DNA from: Dehalococcoidales bacterium | Lineage (GTDB): Bacteria > Chloroflexota > Dehalococcoidia > Lucifugimonadales > Lucifugimonadaceae | Direction of reading: 5' to 3' | Assembly (NCBI GenBank): GCA_009937255.1 | Contig: JAACCT010000015.1 | Coordinates: forward strand, 1-64,000 | DNA: 64,000 bases | Position numbers and translations under genes: made by a program | Notes under the pieces: generated by a model | Databases searched by the model: none | What the model was told of the DNA's origin: nothing | What the model saw: the letters and a program-made list of their open reading frames with translations, nothing else | In this document: positions 26,300-54,431 of the stretch, in pieces | Layout of the letters: each line of letters begins with the position of its first letter | Numbering within the stretch: the first letter of the stretch is position 1

Positions 26300-28945
26300 A
26301 TGTCTTTAAGCTTAAATAATAAAAATTACAAGAATCATATAAATTTACAAGAAGGAGAAAGAGCTTTTTATGATATTGGCTCTTTAGCTTCGGATAATAA
26401 AATAGATATTAAAAAATTACCTTTTTCTATAAGAGTTTTATTAGAAAATGTTTTAAGATCTCATGATATGAATATTTCTAATGAACAGCATATTGAACAA
26501 TTACTTAGATGGGATAAAAATTCAGTTCCGGAGAAAGAATTTCCATATATGCCAGGTAGAGTACTTCTTCAAGATTTTACGGGAGTTCCAGTTGTTGTAG
26601 ATTTAGCTGCAATGAGAGATGCTGTTTCAAAATTAGGTGTAGATGCATCAATCATTAACCCAATTGTTAGATCTGATTTAGTCATTGATCACTCAGTTCA
26701 AGTAGACTCATTTGCAAAGAATTCATCTTTAGAATTAAATATTTCTCGAGAGTTTGAAAGGAATGAAGAAAGATATAAATTATTAAAATGGGCACAAAAT
26801 GCTTTTTCTAATTTTTTAGTTGTTCCTCCAGGAACAGGAATTGTGCATCAAGTTAATTTAGAAAATTTGGCAGAAATAGTTCTTTCATCGACAGAAAAAA
26901 ATATAATCTATCCAGATACTTGTGTAGGAACTGATTCACATACAACAATGATAAATGCAGTTGGAGTATTGGGTTGGGGAGTTGGTGGAATTGAAGCTGA
27001 AGCTGTAATGCTTGGGCAACCTTATTATATGCAAGTTCCTGAAGTAGTAGGAGTAAATTTATTTGGAGATATAAATGAAGGAACAACTGCAACAGATATT
27101 GTACTTGCGATTGTAGAAAAATTAAGAAAAGTTGGAGTAGTAGAAAAATTTGTGGAATTTTTTGGTCCTAGTTTAGGAAAATTATCTTTAACTGATAGGG
27201 CAACTATTTCAAATATGGCTCCTGAATATGGAGCGACTTGTGGATTTTTCCCTGTAGATGAAAGAACTATTGATTATCTAAAAATTACAGGAAGAGATAA
27301 AAAAATAATTGATAGAGTAAAAAAATATAATAAAGAAAATAATCTTTTTTATGATGGGATCGCACCAGATTTTACAAAAATTGTTGATTTTGATTTATCT
27401 GAAGTTAAGAGTTCATTAGCAGGGCCTAAACGACCTCAAGATAGGCTTCTTTTATCTGATGTTAAGACAAATTTTTATGAAAATTTCAATTTATCATCAG
27501 ATCAAATCAATACTTCAAAATTAGATAATGGATCTGTTGTTATCGCAGCTATAACTAGTTGTACTAATACTTCTAATCCTAATGTTATGGTTGGGGCAGG
27601 TCTAATAGCAAGAAATGCTTATATGAAAGGAATTAAACCTAAAAATTGGGTAAAAACCTCTTTAGCTCCGGGCTCTAAAGTAGTTAGTAAATATCTTGAA
27701 GCGGCAGGGTTGGATAAATATTTAAATAATATAGGATTTCAAACGGTAGGATACGGATGTACGACTTGTATTGGTAATTCTGGTCCTTTACCTCAAAAAA
27801 TAGCTGAAGAAGTTGAACAAAAAGAATTATCAGTTTCTGCTGTACTTTCTGGTAATAGGAACTTCGAAGGTAGAGTTCATCCTCAAGTTAAAGCTAATTA
27901 TCTTGCTTCTCCTATGTTAGTCGTTTTGTATGCACTAGCTGGAACGGTAAATATCGATTTTACAAAAGATCCTATTTCATATGACGAAAAAGGAAATCCA
28001 ATTTATTTAGAAAACTTATGGCCATCATCTGAAGAAATTGAAAATACTATTCAAAAATCTTTAACTTCAGATATGTTTATAGAGGAATATAAATCTGTAT
28101 TTGAAGGACCTAAAGAATGGAAAAAACTTACCTCAAACAAAAGTGATAAATTCAACTGGGAACCTGATTCAACATATATACAAAAACCTCCGTATTTCGA
28201 AGATTTTGATTTAAGTTTGCCTGAAAAAAATATTATTGAAGGTGCTAGATGTTTAGTTAAACTATCTAATTCAGTAACAACTGATCATATATCACCAGCT
28301 GGATCAATTCCTCAATCTGCCCCATCAGGTCAACTTTTAATTTCTAGTGATGTTCCAAGGTTTGAATTTAATTCCTATGGTTCTAGAAGAGGAAATCATA
28401 ATGTAATGGTTAGAGGTACATTTGGAAATATAAGATTAAGAAATCAATTAGTTGAAGATGAAGGGGATTGGACAATTCATTTTCCTACAAATGAAAAAAT
28501 GAGAATTTTTGAAGCTTCAGAAAAATATTTAGAATCTAACACACCATTAGTTGTTATTGCTGGTAAAGAGTATGGAACAGGCTCATCAAGAGACTGGGCA
28601 GCTAAAGGTCCTGCTTTACTTGGTGTAAAGGTTGTCATAGCTGAAAGTTTTGAAAGAATACATAGATCTAATTTAGTTGGAATGGGAATTATTCCATTAC
28701 AGTTCTTAAGAAATGAAACCCCAGAAATTTTAGGTCTTGATGGATCAGGAATTTATGATTTTCAAGGGCTTGAAAAAACAATTATTCCAAACTCAAATAT
28801 TAAGGTAAATGTAACTAAGCTAAATGGAGAAAAATTAGAATTTAATACATTGATTAGAATTGATACAGAGATTGAAGCTCAGTATTTTTATAATGGTGGA
28901 TTACTACCATTTGTACTTAGAAAAATGGTGAAAGAATCTAAGTAA
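26300..28945 (+). CDS. acnA: Aconitate hydratase
   Basis: PGTGIVHQVNLENLA, YPDTCVGTDSHTTMINAVGVLGWGVGGIEAEA, AAITSCTNTSNPNVM, GYGCTTCIGNSGPL, AGKEYGTGSSRDWAAKGP. ATG at 26300 with GGGGAGAG upstream preferred over 26216. Confidence 0.95.
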   Translation: MSLSLNNKNYKNHINLQEGERAFYDIGSLASDNKIDIKKLPFSIRVLLENVLRSHDMNISNEQHIEQLLRWDKNSVPEKEFPYMPGRVLLQDFTGVPVVVDLAAMRDAVSKLGVDASIINPIVRSDLVIDHSVQVDSFAKNSSLELNISREFERNEERYKLLKWAQNAFSNFLVVPPGTGIVHQVNLENLAEIVLSSTEKNIIYPDTCVGTDSHTTMINAVGVLGWGVGGIEAEAVMLGQPYYMQVPEVVGVNLFGDINEGTTATDIVLAIVEKLRKVGVVEKFVEFFGPSLGKLSLTDRATISNMAPEYGATCGFFPVDERTIDYLKITGRDKKIIDRVKKYNKENNLFYDGIAPDFTKIVDFDLSEVKSSLAGPKRPQDRLLLSDVKTNFYENFNLSSDQINTSKLDNGSVVIAAITSCTNTSNPNVMVGAGLIARNAYMKGIKPKNWVKTSLAPGSKVVSKYLEAAGLDKYLNNIGFQTVGYGCTTCIGNSGPLPQKIAEEVEQKELSVSAVLSGNRNFEGRVHPQVKANYLASPMLVVLYALAGTVNIDFTKDPISYDEKGNPIYLENLWPSSEEIENTIQKSLTSDMFIEEYKSVFEGPKEWKKLTSNKSDKFNWEPDSTYIQKPPYFEDFDLSLPEKNIIEGARCLVKLSNSVTTDHISPAGSIPQSAPSGQLLISSDVPRFEFNSYGSRRGNHNVMVRGTFGNIRLRNQLVEDEGDWTIHFPTNEKMRIFEASEKYLESNTPLVVIAGKEYGTGSSRDWAAKGPALLGVKVVIAESFERIHRSNLVGMGIIPLQFLRNETPEILGLDGSGIYDFQGLEKTIIPNSNIKVNVTKLNGEKLEFNTLIRIDTEIEAQYFYNGGLLPFVLRKMVKESK

Positions 28946-29803
28946 GACTTTCATTTATGGTACTTTTCTCCCATATAAAATTTGATTTTAAAAGTTTTGA
29001 TGGAATAATATTTTGATTATTTAAAAATAACTCTTTTCCGATTTCTCCAAATATCAAAGAGATAATTTTTTTGTTGATTGAAAATTTTACCAAAGGTTTG
29101 ATAGAAATATTTATATCATGCAAAATATTTTGCATATTTGATGTTTTATTTGATGTAAGGTTTACAGGACCATTTAAGTTTTCATTTTTTATAATATGAT
29201 CTATTGCTCTTAAGGTATCTAATAATGAAATCCAAGGGAATAAATTTTTGCTTGATCCTAATTTATCTATACCAATAATATTACTAAATCTTTTCATATT
29301 TTTTATCATTGGTGATTGATGAGAAATAATCGTTCCTAGTCTGAGAAATATGATTCTAGTATTTTTTAGATTTTGAATTGATTCCCATTCATTTACTAAA
29401 TCTGATAGTACCCCTCTACCTTTGGGTGAACTTTCAGTAAGGATTTCACTAGGTCTATTCCCATAAAAACCACATGCAGAAGCAGAAATTAGTAATTTTG
29501 GAGGGTTTTTTAATTTAGCTATAGTATTAATTAATGTTTTAGTTGGGTTGATTCTACTATTTCTTAATTTATCTATTTTTTTTCTAGGGAAATTACCAAT
29601 AATTTTATTTCCATTTAGGTTAACTATTACATCTGAATCATAGATTAATTTTTCATCTAAATAATAATTTTCAGGATCCCATTTTTTTGATAACTTTTTT
29701 TATTATCTCTAATTAGTAAATTAGTTTTATAGTTCTTTTCTGACAAATAACCAATTAAGTTTTGTCCTATAAAACCACTTGAACCACTTATAGTAACTTT
29801 CAT
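28938..29803 (-). pseudogene. TIGR01777/SDR39U1-like NAD-dependent epimerase, split by apparent frameshift at 29695-29701
   Basis: Manual reading: MKVTISGSSGFIGQNLIGYLSEKNYKTNLLIRDNKK | LSKKWDPENYYLDEKLIYDSDVIVNLNGNKIIGNFPRKKIDKLRNSRINPTKTLINTIAKLKNPPKLLISASACGFYGNRPSEILTESSPKGRGVLSDLVNEWE..., continuing into track ORF 28938-29309. Confidence 0.85.
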
Positions 29804-50997: not shown

Positions 50998-51357
50998 ATG
51001 CTCTTAACTGGAATAGATATTATTGAAATTTATAGAATTAAAGATGTTTGTCAAAAATATCCAAATAGATTCATGACAAAAATTTTTACTCAACAAGAGA
51101 TTTCTTATTGTAAGGGTAGATTCCCTCAAATTGCTGCTAGATTTGCTACTAAAGAAGCTGTAATGAAATTACTTGGTACTGGAATTAGAGGAGTACCTTG
51201 GAAATCAATAGAAGTATTTAGAGAAAGGGGAAAAGCCCCTCAAGTTATACTTCATGGGAATGCAAAAAAGAAGGCTGAAGAGCTAGGAATTAATGAGATA
51301 GCACTTTCTATTAGTCATTCAAGAAATTATGCAGTAGATTCAGTAGTATCTATTTAA
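50998..51357 (+). CDS. acpS: Holo-[acyl-carrier-protein] synthase
   Basis: LLTGIDIIEIYRI, IAARFATKEAVMKLLGTGIRG, IALSISHSRNYAV. Confidence 0.93.
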   Translation: MLLTGIDIIEIYRIKDVCQKYPNRFMTKIFTQQEISYCKGRFPQIAARFATKEAVMKLLGTGIRGVPWKSIEVFRERGKAPQVILHGNAKKKAEELGINEIALSISHSRNYAVDSVVSI

Positions 51358-52828
51358 GAATTTTATTTTTTTTAATTAGATAGTCAATTTGAATTATTAT
51401 TCCTAAAACTAACGCTATAACAGAAAAAATCAATGCTCCAAAAATTAATTCTTGAAAAACTTCTATTCCTGCTATATTTATATTATTTATAAGCTCTTTT
51501 TGTTCCTTGGAATTTGATGTAAATATCTGTATGCCTGATACTAATTCAGAAAATCTAGAAGTCCCAAAAGCCGTCATAATTGATAACCCAAAAATCATTC
51601 CTGTCATCCTAGAAAAAGATATCATAGAAGAGGCTATTCCTCTGATTTTTACTGGAATTTTTTCTAGTCCTAAATTATGGATAGGTACAATATATAAACC
51701 AAAACCAGTACCAACTATAAAAAATATGTAAGCTAAATCATTTGGTGGTTTTGAAATATTAATTGAATATAATAAAATTCCAATAGAAGTTATTACACCT
51801 GCTAAATTCATACTGAAGAAATTACTAAATTTTGACAATAAAATACCTATAATTGATCCGACTCCTATGAATAATGTTAAGTTTAATAAAGATAAGCCAA
51901 TCTCCAAATTACCCATTTCGTGAATTGTAGAAGATGATAAAGGTATTGTGACCATTATGATAATTAAACTCGCACCTATAAAAAAATGCGTACTGAAAGA
52001 AATTATAAAAGTTTTATATTTAAATATTTCAGGTGGAATAAAATCTTGTAAGCCTTTCAATACTCTATAAATAAAGAAACATAGCAAAAATATAATACTA
52101 ATTATTATTACTAAGTTGAGGGAAGTAAGGTTTGAATATTCTGATATTAAATATGTTGTTAAAATAATTACGACTGAAAATAATATTGCATCAAATATTT
52201 TTATCCTTGCTTTACTAGGTTGACTATTAGGTAGAAAATACATTAAAAAAATTATTCCAAAGGATATTGGTATATTGATTAGAAAAGCTGTTTCCCAATT
52301 CCAATATTCTACAATTAAGCTTCCCCATAATGGTCCAATTACTCCACCTAGTTCTGCTGAAGCTCCAATTAAACCAAATCCATAAATCCAATATTTTTTT
52401 TCAAAAATCAACGAAATACCTACCATACAAATTGGAATTATAGCTCCTCCACCCATAGCTTGTATAAATCTAAAAAAAACCATCCATAATAATTTCGATG
52501 GTAAAAAAGGACTGTTGGGAATTATATTAGTCATTCCTATCATCAAAGATCCGAATGAGAATATCAATAAAGAAATAATTAAAGTAGATTTGTATCCATA
52601 TTTATCACATATTTTTCCTGCAATTGGCATAATTAATGTAAATCCTAGTAAGTAAGAAGTAATTGTCCAAGAAACTTTATTTAGCTCACCTACAGATATC
52701 CTTAAATCTAGCATCATGCTCGGTAATAAAGTTACAATAACAGTTTGATCATCAGCTGCTATAAACACTGTTATACAAAATAAAGATAGGAATAATAATT
52801 TATTTTTTAAACTTAAGGTTCTATCCAT
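51350..52828 (-). CDS. DHA2-type MFS transporter (P55/Rv1410c-like context)
   Basis: FIAADDQTVIVTLLPSMMLDL, FRFIQAMGGGAIIPICMVGISLIFEKKYWIYGFGLIGASAELGGVIGPLWG; ATG at 52828 plausible (track 52846); overlaps upstream lipoprotein. Confidence 0.85.
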   Translation of the reverse strand: MDRTLSLKNKLLFLSLFCITVFIAADDQTVIVTLLPSMMLDLRISVGELNKVSWTITSYLLGFTLIMPIAGKICDKYGYKSTLIISLLIFSFGSLMIGMTNIIPNSPFLPSKLLWMVFFRFIQAMGGGAIIPICMVGISLIFEKKYWIYGFGLIGASAELGGVIGPLWGSLIVEYWNWETAFLINIPISFGIIFLMYFLPNSQPSKARIKIFDAILFSVVIILTTYLISEYSNLTSLNLVIIISIIFLLCFFIYRVLKGLQDFIPPEIFKYKTFIISFSTHFFIGASLIIIMVTIPLSSSTIHEMGNLEIGLSLLNLTLFIGVGSIIGILLSKFSNFFSMNLAGVITSIGILLYSINISKPPNDLAYIFFIVGTGFGLYIVPIHNLGLEKIPVKIRGIASSMISFSRMTGMIFGLSIMTAFGTSRFSELVSGIQIFTSNSKEQKELINNINIAGIEVFQELIFGALIFSVIALVLGIIIQIDYLIKKNKILK

Positions 52829-53490
52829 ATTAATTTTTTGTTCCAATTATTAAACTTAATTTCTCTAATGGTTTGTATTGAGTCTTTAGGTTGAACTTTA
52901 CCAAATATATATATTTTTTTTACAAATCCATTTGAATTTATTAATAACTCTATATCAACATCACTATTAAAAATAATTATCTCTCCTACAAGAGAAGTTA
53001 AATTATTTGAATTTATTTTTGCTTTTATTTTGTATTGTTCATTTTTATACTCAATAATCTCAGTATTTTTAATTTCTAAGTAAATATCGCTTAAAATATT
53101 AATTGGATTAATATTTAAAAATGGATTATCTTCACTTGGAGTTTCCATCCAGTCAAAAGATATTGGATTAGTTATCCAATACTTTTCGTTTAAAGAAAGA
53201 TAAGAAACTTTTAAGAGGAAATTATTAGAAATAATATCGGCATCTATTGATATTTTATTTGGTTTTTCAATATTTCCTTTAGCTTGTGAAATATTATAAT
53301 CTCCAGGTAGTTCTGTAGATCCATTTTGGTGATTTAAACTAAATGTAAAAGATTTCGAATTTAAAATTTGATTACTTGATAAACTGATTACTTCTTCTAC
53401 GCTTAATATTTCATATGATTCATCATTAGATGAACATGATAAAAAAAATATTATTAATAATATATATAAATAAGTTTTTTTGATTATGAT
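52813..53490 (-). CDS. LppX/LprAFG (LprG-like) lipoprotein with non-canonical start
   Basis: Manual in-frame extension of track ORF 52813-53148: (I)IIKKTYLYILLIIFFLSCSSNDESYEILSVEEVISLSSNQILNSKSFTFSLNHQ...AKGNIEKPNKISIDADI...KYWITNPISFDWMETPSEDNPFLNINPINILSDI...LIWIEP; AAAGGA upstream; first codons ATC ATA ATC. Confidence 0.75.
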   Translation of the reverse strand: MIIKKTYLYILLIIFFLSCSSNDESYEILSVEEVISLSSNQILNSKSFTFSLNHQNGSTELPGDYNISQAKGNIEKPNKISIDADIISNNFLLKVSYLSLNEKYWITNPISFDWMETPSEDNPFLNINPINILSDIYLEIKNTEIIEYKNEQYKIKAKINSNNLTSLVGEIIIFNSDVDIELLINSNGFVKKIYIFGKVQPKDSIQTIREIKFNNWNKKLIWIEP

Positions 53491-53591
53491 TTTTCCTTTA
53501 ATTATTTCTTAAACTGTTTACTTACTATTTTACTAATTATTAATAAAGTTTCACAAAAATATAAAGTATTGTATATTTAATATTGTAAATT

Positions 53592-53673
53592 TTCTTTTGG
53601 GGAGCTAATAAGTGCTGAGAGGGTATAAAAACCGACCCATATAACCTGAACTAGATAATTCTAGCGGAGGGAA
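53592..53673 (+). ncRNA. TPP riboswitch (THI box)
   Basis: TTCTTTTGGGGAGC..AGTGCTGAGAGGGT..ACCGACCC..ATAACCTGAACTAGATAATTCTAGCGGAGGGAA: canonical CUGAGA and ACCUGA..GAUAAU..AGCG.AGGGAA elements. Confidence 0.97.
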
Positions 53674-53675
53674 TA

Positions 53676-54431
53676 ATAATCAAAAATATAGTTTTAGATA
53701 AAATAACATATAACTTCTCTGAAGATCCTCCTTTAATTGACCAATTATCTTATAATTTTCCTTTTGGTAAAACAATTGCAATTCTAGGTCATAGTGGATG
53801 TGGTAAAAGTACTTTATTACAAATGATATCGGGTGTTTTAGAACCAACTGATGGAGAAATTAAACTTAATAATTGTTCAAATAGATTAGGGAAAATTGCT
53901 TACATGCAACAAAAAGATCTTTTACTTCCATGGCTAACTGTAAAAGAAAATGTGATGTTGCCTTATAAAATAAATAAAAATAATGTAACTAATAATATTA
54001 ATGACATACTTGAGAAAGCTAAAATTTTAGGAATTGAAGAATATTTAGAATTTTTCCCTCATGAGTTATGAGGAGGATTAAAGCAAAGAGTTTCTTTATT
54101 AAGAACTATCCTTCAAAATTCTGAATTTATTTTACTTGATGAACCATTTGCATCATTAGACGCAATAACTAGATTAGAATTATACTCTTGGATTGAAAAA
54201 ATTAATAAACATATTAACAAGTCTATAATTTTAGTAACTCATGATATAGAAGAAGCAATTTTTTTATCAGATCATGTCATAATTATGTCTTCAGGAAAAA
54301 ATAATTTTCGTTATGAATTACCTATTAATTTAAAACATCCAAGAAATTCAAATATAACAATAACCAATGAATTTTTTAATCTAAAAAAACTTTTACTCAA
54401 GAATTTAAGATTGGTGAGATCTATTGATTAA
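53676..54431 (+). pseudogene. thiZ: ThiZ-like HMP/thiamine-precursor ABC transporter ATPase with in-frame TGA at 54069-54071 and no canonical start
   Basis: (ATA)IKNIVLDKITYNFSEDPPLIDQLSYNFPFGKTIAILGHSGCGKSTLL...MQQKDLLLPWLTVKEN...FFPHEL*GGLKQRVSLLRTILQNSEFILLDEPFASLDAITRLELYSW...ILVTHDIEEAIFLSDHVIIM; Walker A/B and H-loop intact. Confidence 0.85.

Follow-up and report, generated by a model that had tools for sequence, protein, structure and literature searches.

Does the DNA in front of a DHA2-type transporter gene in this SAR202 genome hold a lipoprotein gene that was overlooked by ORF calling, and do the two genes together form a lipid-export module of the LprG-P55 type? Work on the LprG-P55 pair has treated it as a system of the mycobacterial envelope and of virulence, with a purpose explained by the mycomembrane. 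The window analyzed here is a 64-kb stretch of contig C35 from a small, AT-rich SAR202 genome (1.47 Mb in 108 contigs). The family and fold of the proteins, the functional residues that they keep, the order of the genes and the conservation of the pair all point the same way, and we put the probability that this is an LprG-P55-type lipid-export module at about 0.75. That the pair moves lipid, and in which direction, would follow by homology with the mycobacterial proteins.

A lipoprotein frame and its transporter neighbor

The minus-strand frame from stop to stop (52813..53508) is uninterrupted over 231 aa and holds every motif quoted in the original prediction (the FFLSC lipobox, KGNIEKPNKISIDA, YWITNPISFDWMETP, NPINILSDI and LIWIEP). 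Its first in-frame ATG, GTG or TTG lies at codon 121 and yields a product of 111 aa; the full gene was hidden from ORF calling, as originally noted, and the reason is that it has no such start. Most likely it starts with ATA at 53487, occupies 52813..53487 (-) and encodes 224 aa, or else 225 aa from ATC at 53490, so that the upstream extension stands and the earlier length of about 226 aa is corrected. The signal peptide is IIKKTYLYILLIIFFLSC, the lipobox Cys codon lies at 53436-53434 (-), the mature part is encoded by 52816-53436 (-), and the stop codon is at 52813-52815. The 3′ end of the gene overlaps the 5′ end of the downstream MFS gene by 16 nt (52813..52828, -), an overlap that had also been predicted and that may permit translational coupling. 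On its upstream side, the module is bounded by a divergent thiamine ABC operon and the TPP riboswitch of that operon (53588..53689, +), which lies outside the module.

A genus search returned nine genomes, and the lipoprotein is encoded in all nine species (53-66% identity among the others). Orthologues were found in 42 of 60 relatives, and the MFS gene directly follows the lipoprotein gene in 29 of 30 relatives' loci; the frame is therefore not a product of chance. Adjacency also holds in 17 of the 20 PF07161 loci of the order, in 21 of 28 loci elsewhere in the Chloroflexota and in 75 of 80 named related MFS loci, which were gathered with the MFS alignment as the query. Two of the five unpaired loci in this last set are contig ends, and the other three have wider gaps (201 to 443 nt). 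The order of the genes is that of mycobacterial lprG-Rv1410c, as originally noted, and these counts bear out the conservation of the pair. More broadly, in a sample of 301 Chloroflexota genomes, 108 carry a member of the lipoprotein family, which is absent from the listed genomes of other orders in the same class. In several genera, the lipoprotein gene is immediately preceded by a short, conserved, Cys-rich frame that resembles a zinc ribbon and has RDCSDP or a similar sequence at its end (L013, L017, L021, L023 and L025).

Membership of the lipoprotein in the LppX_LprAFG superfamily is established at the level of the family. Searched singly, the extended protein had no match to PF07161 above the Pfam cut-off, nor did its own genome contain one, and the single sequence retrieved nothing from the PDB at an E value of ≤10. 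The direct HMM check suggested in the original prediction was thus negative, and the assignment was borne out by the orthologues, the family profile and the predicted fold. Of 118 genomes in the order, 56 had a PF07161 match above the cut-off, in part at the very loci matched by the window protein (e.g., G055:C14, G043:C5 and G046:C1), and PF07161 matched 23 of 38 aligned family members at an E value of ≤0.01 (best, 5e-20); matches to other families among these 38 amounted to two scattered single ones. Against the PDB, the family profile found only LprG (1e-9), LprF (1e-4) and LppX (0.03). An AlphaFold (AF2) model (pLDDT, 92; pTM, 0.87) returned structures of these same three proteins as its top nine Foldseek matches, with LprG the best (E value, 1e-10; ca. 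10% identity in the fold match). TM scores were 0.68 to 0.77 for LprG; set against LolA (≤0.45), the LprG, LprF and LppX structures scored 0.61 to 0.74.

The downstream gene encodes a P55/Rv1410-like DHA2 MFS transporter of 492 aa from an ATG (51350..52828, -; the ORF reaches 52846 with a TTG start). Its named relatives come from SAR202/Dehalococcoidia MAGs and from the cultured "Candidatus Lucifugimonas marina." The protein matches Pfam MFS_1, and its best NCBIfam match (TIGR00711, EmrB; 145 bits) falls below the cut-off of 230. When its profile was compared with solved structures, MHAS2168 (8pnl), the mycobacterial homologue of Rv1410/P55, was found at 8e-96, and EfpA (2e-42), QacA (5e-38) and EmrB (3e-35) scored some 175 to 200 bits lower; the single sequence gave 4e-32 for 8pnl, against 1e-16. 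8pnl ranked first by phmmer, by hmmsearch and by Foldseek E value, in keeping with the P55-like identity first suggested. The predicted model (pLDDT, 87) has the expected 14 TM helices, of which TM11 (residues 393-430) and TM12 (residues 440-491) are 38 and 52 residues long. Periplasmic extensions like those of P55 had been named as a feature to check. The long helices agree with such extensions, but in the sequence alignment the connection between them is about 9 residues shorter than that of MHAS2168.

In Rv1410, mutations at D22, E147 and R417 impair function, 17 mycobacterial homologues share the E-R ion lock, which 46 other characterized MFS transporters lack, and the TM11/TM12 extensions have been proposed to guide lipid into LprG (PMC10576003). 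The window transporter has E159 and R407 aligned with E147 and R417, and D27 and R120 aligned with the TM1 Asp/TM4 Arg pair D22 and R108 (residues were matched through pairwise and profile alignments to the 8pnl chain, with numbering taken as offset by one from PMC10576003). Across the MFS loci, R120 and E159 are each conserved in 81 of 81 sequences and R407 in 77 of 78; D27 is likewise found in 81 of 81, an invariance that is partly built in, given that the locus scan pattern contained ADD. Both residues of the ion lock occur together in 77 of 78 transporters, the exception having Lys in place of Arg.

Two other identities for these proteins were weighed. The transporter could be an ordinary DHA2 drug or metabolite exporter of the EmrB/QacA type whose lipoprotein neighbor has a separate role, and there is something to be said for this, since TIGR00711 is the best NCBIfam match (albeit under its cut-off) and the model fits EmrB and QacA well, with query-normalized TM-scores (0.81 to 0.82) above that for MHAS2168 (0.76), which was solved in the outward-open state. 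Names overlap here: the P55 of mycobacteria, too, was initially described as an efflux pump. We nevertheless regard a drug exporter as improbable, because the MHAS2168 sequence score is more than twice that of any drug pump in bits, neither ion-lock residue is found in the EfpA alignments, and linkage to the lipoprotein is near universal. The lipoprotein, for its part, could be a LolA-like general carrier of lipoproteins rather than a carrier of lipid, given that LolA and LolB folds come next in the Foldseek list. This strikes us as barely credible: the LprG, LprF and LppX structures all rank ahead of LolA, the lipobox Cys is present in nearly all homologues (so the protein is itself lipid anchored), and, as described below, there appears to be no outer membrane to serve.

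Proposed mechanism, envelope and possible cargo

If the LprG-P55 identity is correct, the P55-like pump would take lipid from the membrane core or the inner leaflet, with coupling to the proton gradient through the cross-domain ion lock (E159-R407) and the TM1 Asp/TM4 Arg pair (D27-R120), and would move it to the outer face between the elongated helices TM11 and TM12. The LprG-like lipoprotein, anchored in the membrane, would receive the lipid in its predicted half-barrel pocket and deliver it to an envelope acceptor. Our literature search found no experimental study of any of the module's proteins, nor functional data for members outside mycobacteria, and nothing that connects LprG with Chloroflexi or SAR202, or LppX with Chloroflexi.

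Like LprG-Rv1410c (P55) of Mycobacterium tuberculosis and MHAS2167/68 of Mycobacterium hassiacum, the SAR202 pair has the order lipoprotein then DHA2 MFS, the LppX_LprAFG fold, and a 14-TM pump with the D/R and ion-lock E/R residues and long TM11 and TM12. It departs from both in the shorter TM11-TM12 connection, in a lipoprotein only ca. 10% identical to LprG, in a start codon that is apparently AUA, and in a host that lacks an outer membrane or mycomembrane and in which no WS/DGAT was found. LppX and LprF (PF07161) belong to the same half-barrel fold family as the window lipoprotein, but LppX has the transporter MmpL7 as its partner (PMC4709180) and not an adjacent MFS protein. EmrB, QacA and EfpA share the 14-TM DHA2 scaffold; they differ in their weaker sequence scores and, in the case of EfpA, in the missing E/R ion lock. 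To our knowledge, none of these three is paired with a PF07161 lipoprotein.

A cultured SAR202 strain is monoderm and without peptidoglycan genes (PMC10444878). Consistent with this, Omp85 was absent from all 31 genomes searched, while the control search was positive in 7 known genomes. The device is thus of a known type in an unexpected, single-membrane host, and we regard the occurrence of LprG-P55 in SAR202 as real and well identified. Finding the same pair, ion lock included, in monoderm marine Chloroflexota separates its core function from the mycomembrane, and the cultured "Ca. Lucifugimonas marina" JH1073 (L116) offers a way to put that core function to the test.

What the pair might carry is a more tentative matter. 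LprG has been crystallized with Ac1PIM2 and with triacylglyceride (TAG) (PMC4709180), and the original prediction named both TAG and lipoglycan export. Export of TAG, as proposed for LprG-Rv1410, would fit the family, the gene order and the binding of TAG by LprG, and other LprG-bearing Chloroflexota do have WS/DGAT. However, none of 40 order relatives had WS/DGAT (PF03007), whereas the same search was positive in 9 of 151 Chloroflexota, 6 of which also carry the lipoprotein. A TAG synthase other than WS/DGAT is possible in the order relatives, but we consider TAG unlikely as the cargo here, and a TAG function should not be assumed for the SAR202 pair. The six genomes in which an LprG-like lipoprotein and WS/DGAT occur together (G150, G182, G191, G200, G225 and G272) belong to other classes of the phylum, where TAG could be the cargo.

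The lipoglycan half of the prediction fares better, with genes for phosphatidylinositol (PI) and PimA-like genes present. ino1 was found in 29 of 31 genomes and a PimA-like gene in 37 of 40 order relatives, and contig C81 of the genome from which the window comes bears a cluster of ino1, a PimA-like GT4 gene and a PI-phosphate-synthase-like gene (L185:5597-8409). The nearest solved relative of the GT4 product is PimA (1e-48, versus 4e-16 for the next), and the CDP-alcohol phosphatidyltransferase is nearest to PI-phosphate synthases (2e-26; NCBIfam PIPSynth below cut-off). Judged by these similarities, the cluster putatively encodes the steps with which PI mannoside synthesis of the mycobacterial type begins. 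Given the absence of WS/DGAT, the presence of the ino1, PimA-like and PIPS-like genes, and the LprG-Ac1PIM2 crystal, we favor over TAG a PI-based, PI mannoside-like glycolipid that would be placed in the outer leaflet/S-layer zone, at somewhat less than even odds. PimA-like genes are present also in genomes with no lipoprotein match, so the cargo cannot be deduced from co-occurrence, and the argument is one of plausibility rather than correlation. A PatA-type acyltransferase (PF03279) was missing in 30 of 31 genomes, which makes a triacylated PI mannoside unlikely, at least by the PatA route.

Apparent near-cognate start codons in the genus

Between the upstream stop codon (53509-53511) and codon 121, the lipoprotein frame contains no ATG, GTG or TTG. 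A Shine-Dalgarno-like AAAGGA (53494..53499, -) is separated by a 6-nt spacer from ATA at 53487-53485, and two ATC codons (53490 and 53484) are alternative starts near it. Three species (the window genome, L005 and L006) have no canonical start from the upstream stop as far as the signal peptide; they have ATA, ATA and ATT, respectively, 6 to 7 nt after the Shine-Dalgarno sequence. The start is ambiguous in L008 and L009. We infer that translation begins at AUA 53487 or at a neighboring AUC.

The gene might instead go untranslated in the window species, whether for want of a start codon, through an assembly error or as an early pseudogene; the missing canonical start would agree with this, as would the fact that its divergent neighbor in the same assembly, thiZ, has an in-frame TGA. 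We think this quite improbable in view of a frame that is intact over 231 codons, of the intact frames and Shine-Dalgarno sequences of L005 and L006 (likewise without canonical starts), and of similar starts at aligned positions of other genes in the genus. In thiZ (window start 53673, +), three species have ATG or TTG at the start position behind GGAGGGA, three have ATT, and another three, among them the window species, have ATA. In valS (window 40416, +), the first canonical codon of G004, G006 and G007 comes only at codons 85 to 98, and ATT or ATC stands 6 to 7 nt after GGAGG. folD has ATT in G002 and G005 where the window has ATG and then ATC. The infC gene of the genus appears to begin with ATA; infC is known elsewhere for a near-cognate start.

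Candidate near-cognate starts were read at loci L001-L009, L052, L216, L298, L305, L312 and L314. Of the 90 raw candidates that had no early canonical start, the majority reflected a conserved leader or an overlapping tRNA, and a stricter cut was therefore used. By this criterion, 23 of 786 genus genes had no canonical start within the first 25 aligned codons, compared to 0 of 122 in the sister genus g5. Read one by one, some 13 of the 23 look genuine; the others can be put down to conserved leaders, overlap with a tRNA or broken genes. We rejected the idea that start codon choice is relaxed for lack of IF3, as infC is present in all nine genus genomes. IF3 of the genus (L265, L270 and L272-L275) reads LRGR where the other SAR202 IF3 sequences printed have FRGR or FKGR, and a link to relaxed start codon choice is possible, as a lead only.

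Taken at the level of sequence, these observations lead us to lean slightly toward a joint reading, in which an unusual share of the genes in this genus begin at near-cognate codons behind strong Shine-Dalgarno sequences and LprG-P55 works in a single-membrane cell. If so, the basic role of LprG-P55 is something other than to seal a mycomembrane, and genes such as the lipoprotein gene, valS and thiZ are missed or shortened by standard annotation; should the near-cognate starts be confirmed, part of a widespread ocean lineage would be systematically misannotated.

Two further frames in the window deserve mention. In the thiamine ABC ATPase gene thiZ, a TGA (54069-54071, +) replaces the conserved Ser codon of the LSGG signature, which the eight other species of the genus keep; this is either a species-specific nonsense change or an assembly error. 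An epimerase-like frame (28938-29699, -) lacks its N-terminal part relative to its orthologues, has no early start codon, and looks broken or frameshifted.
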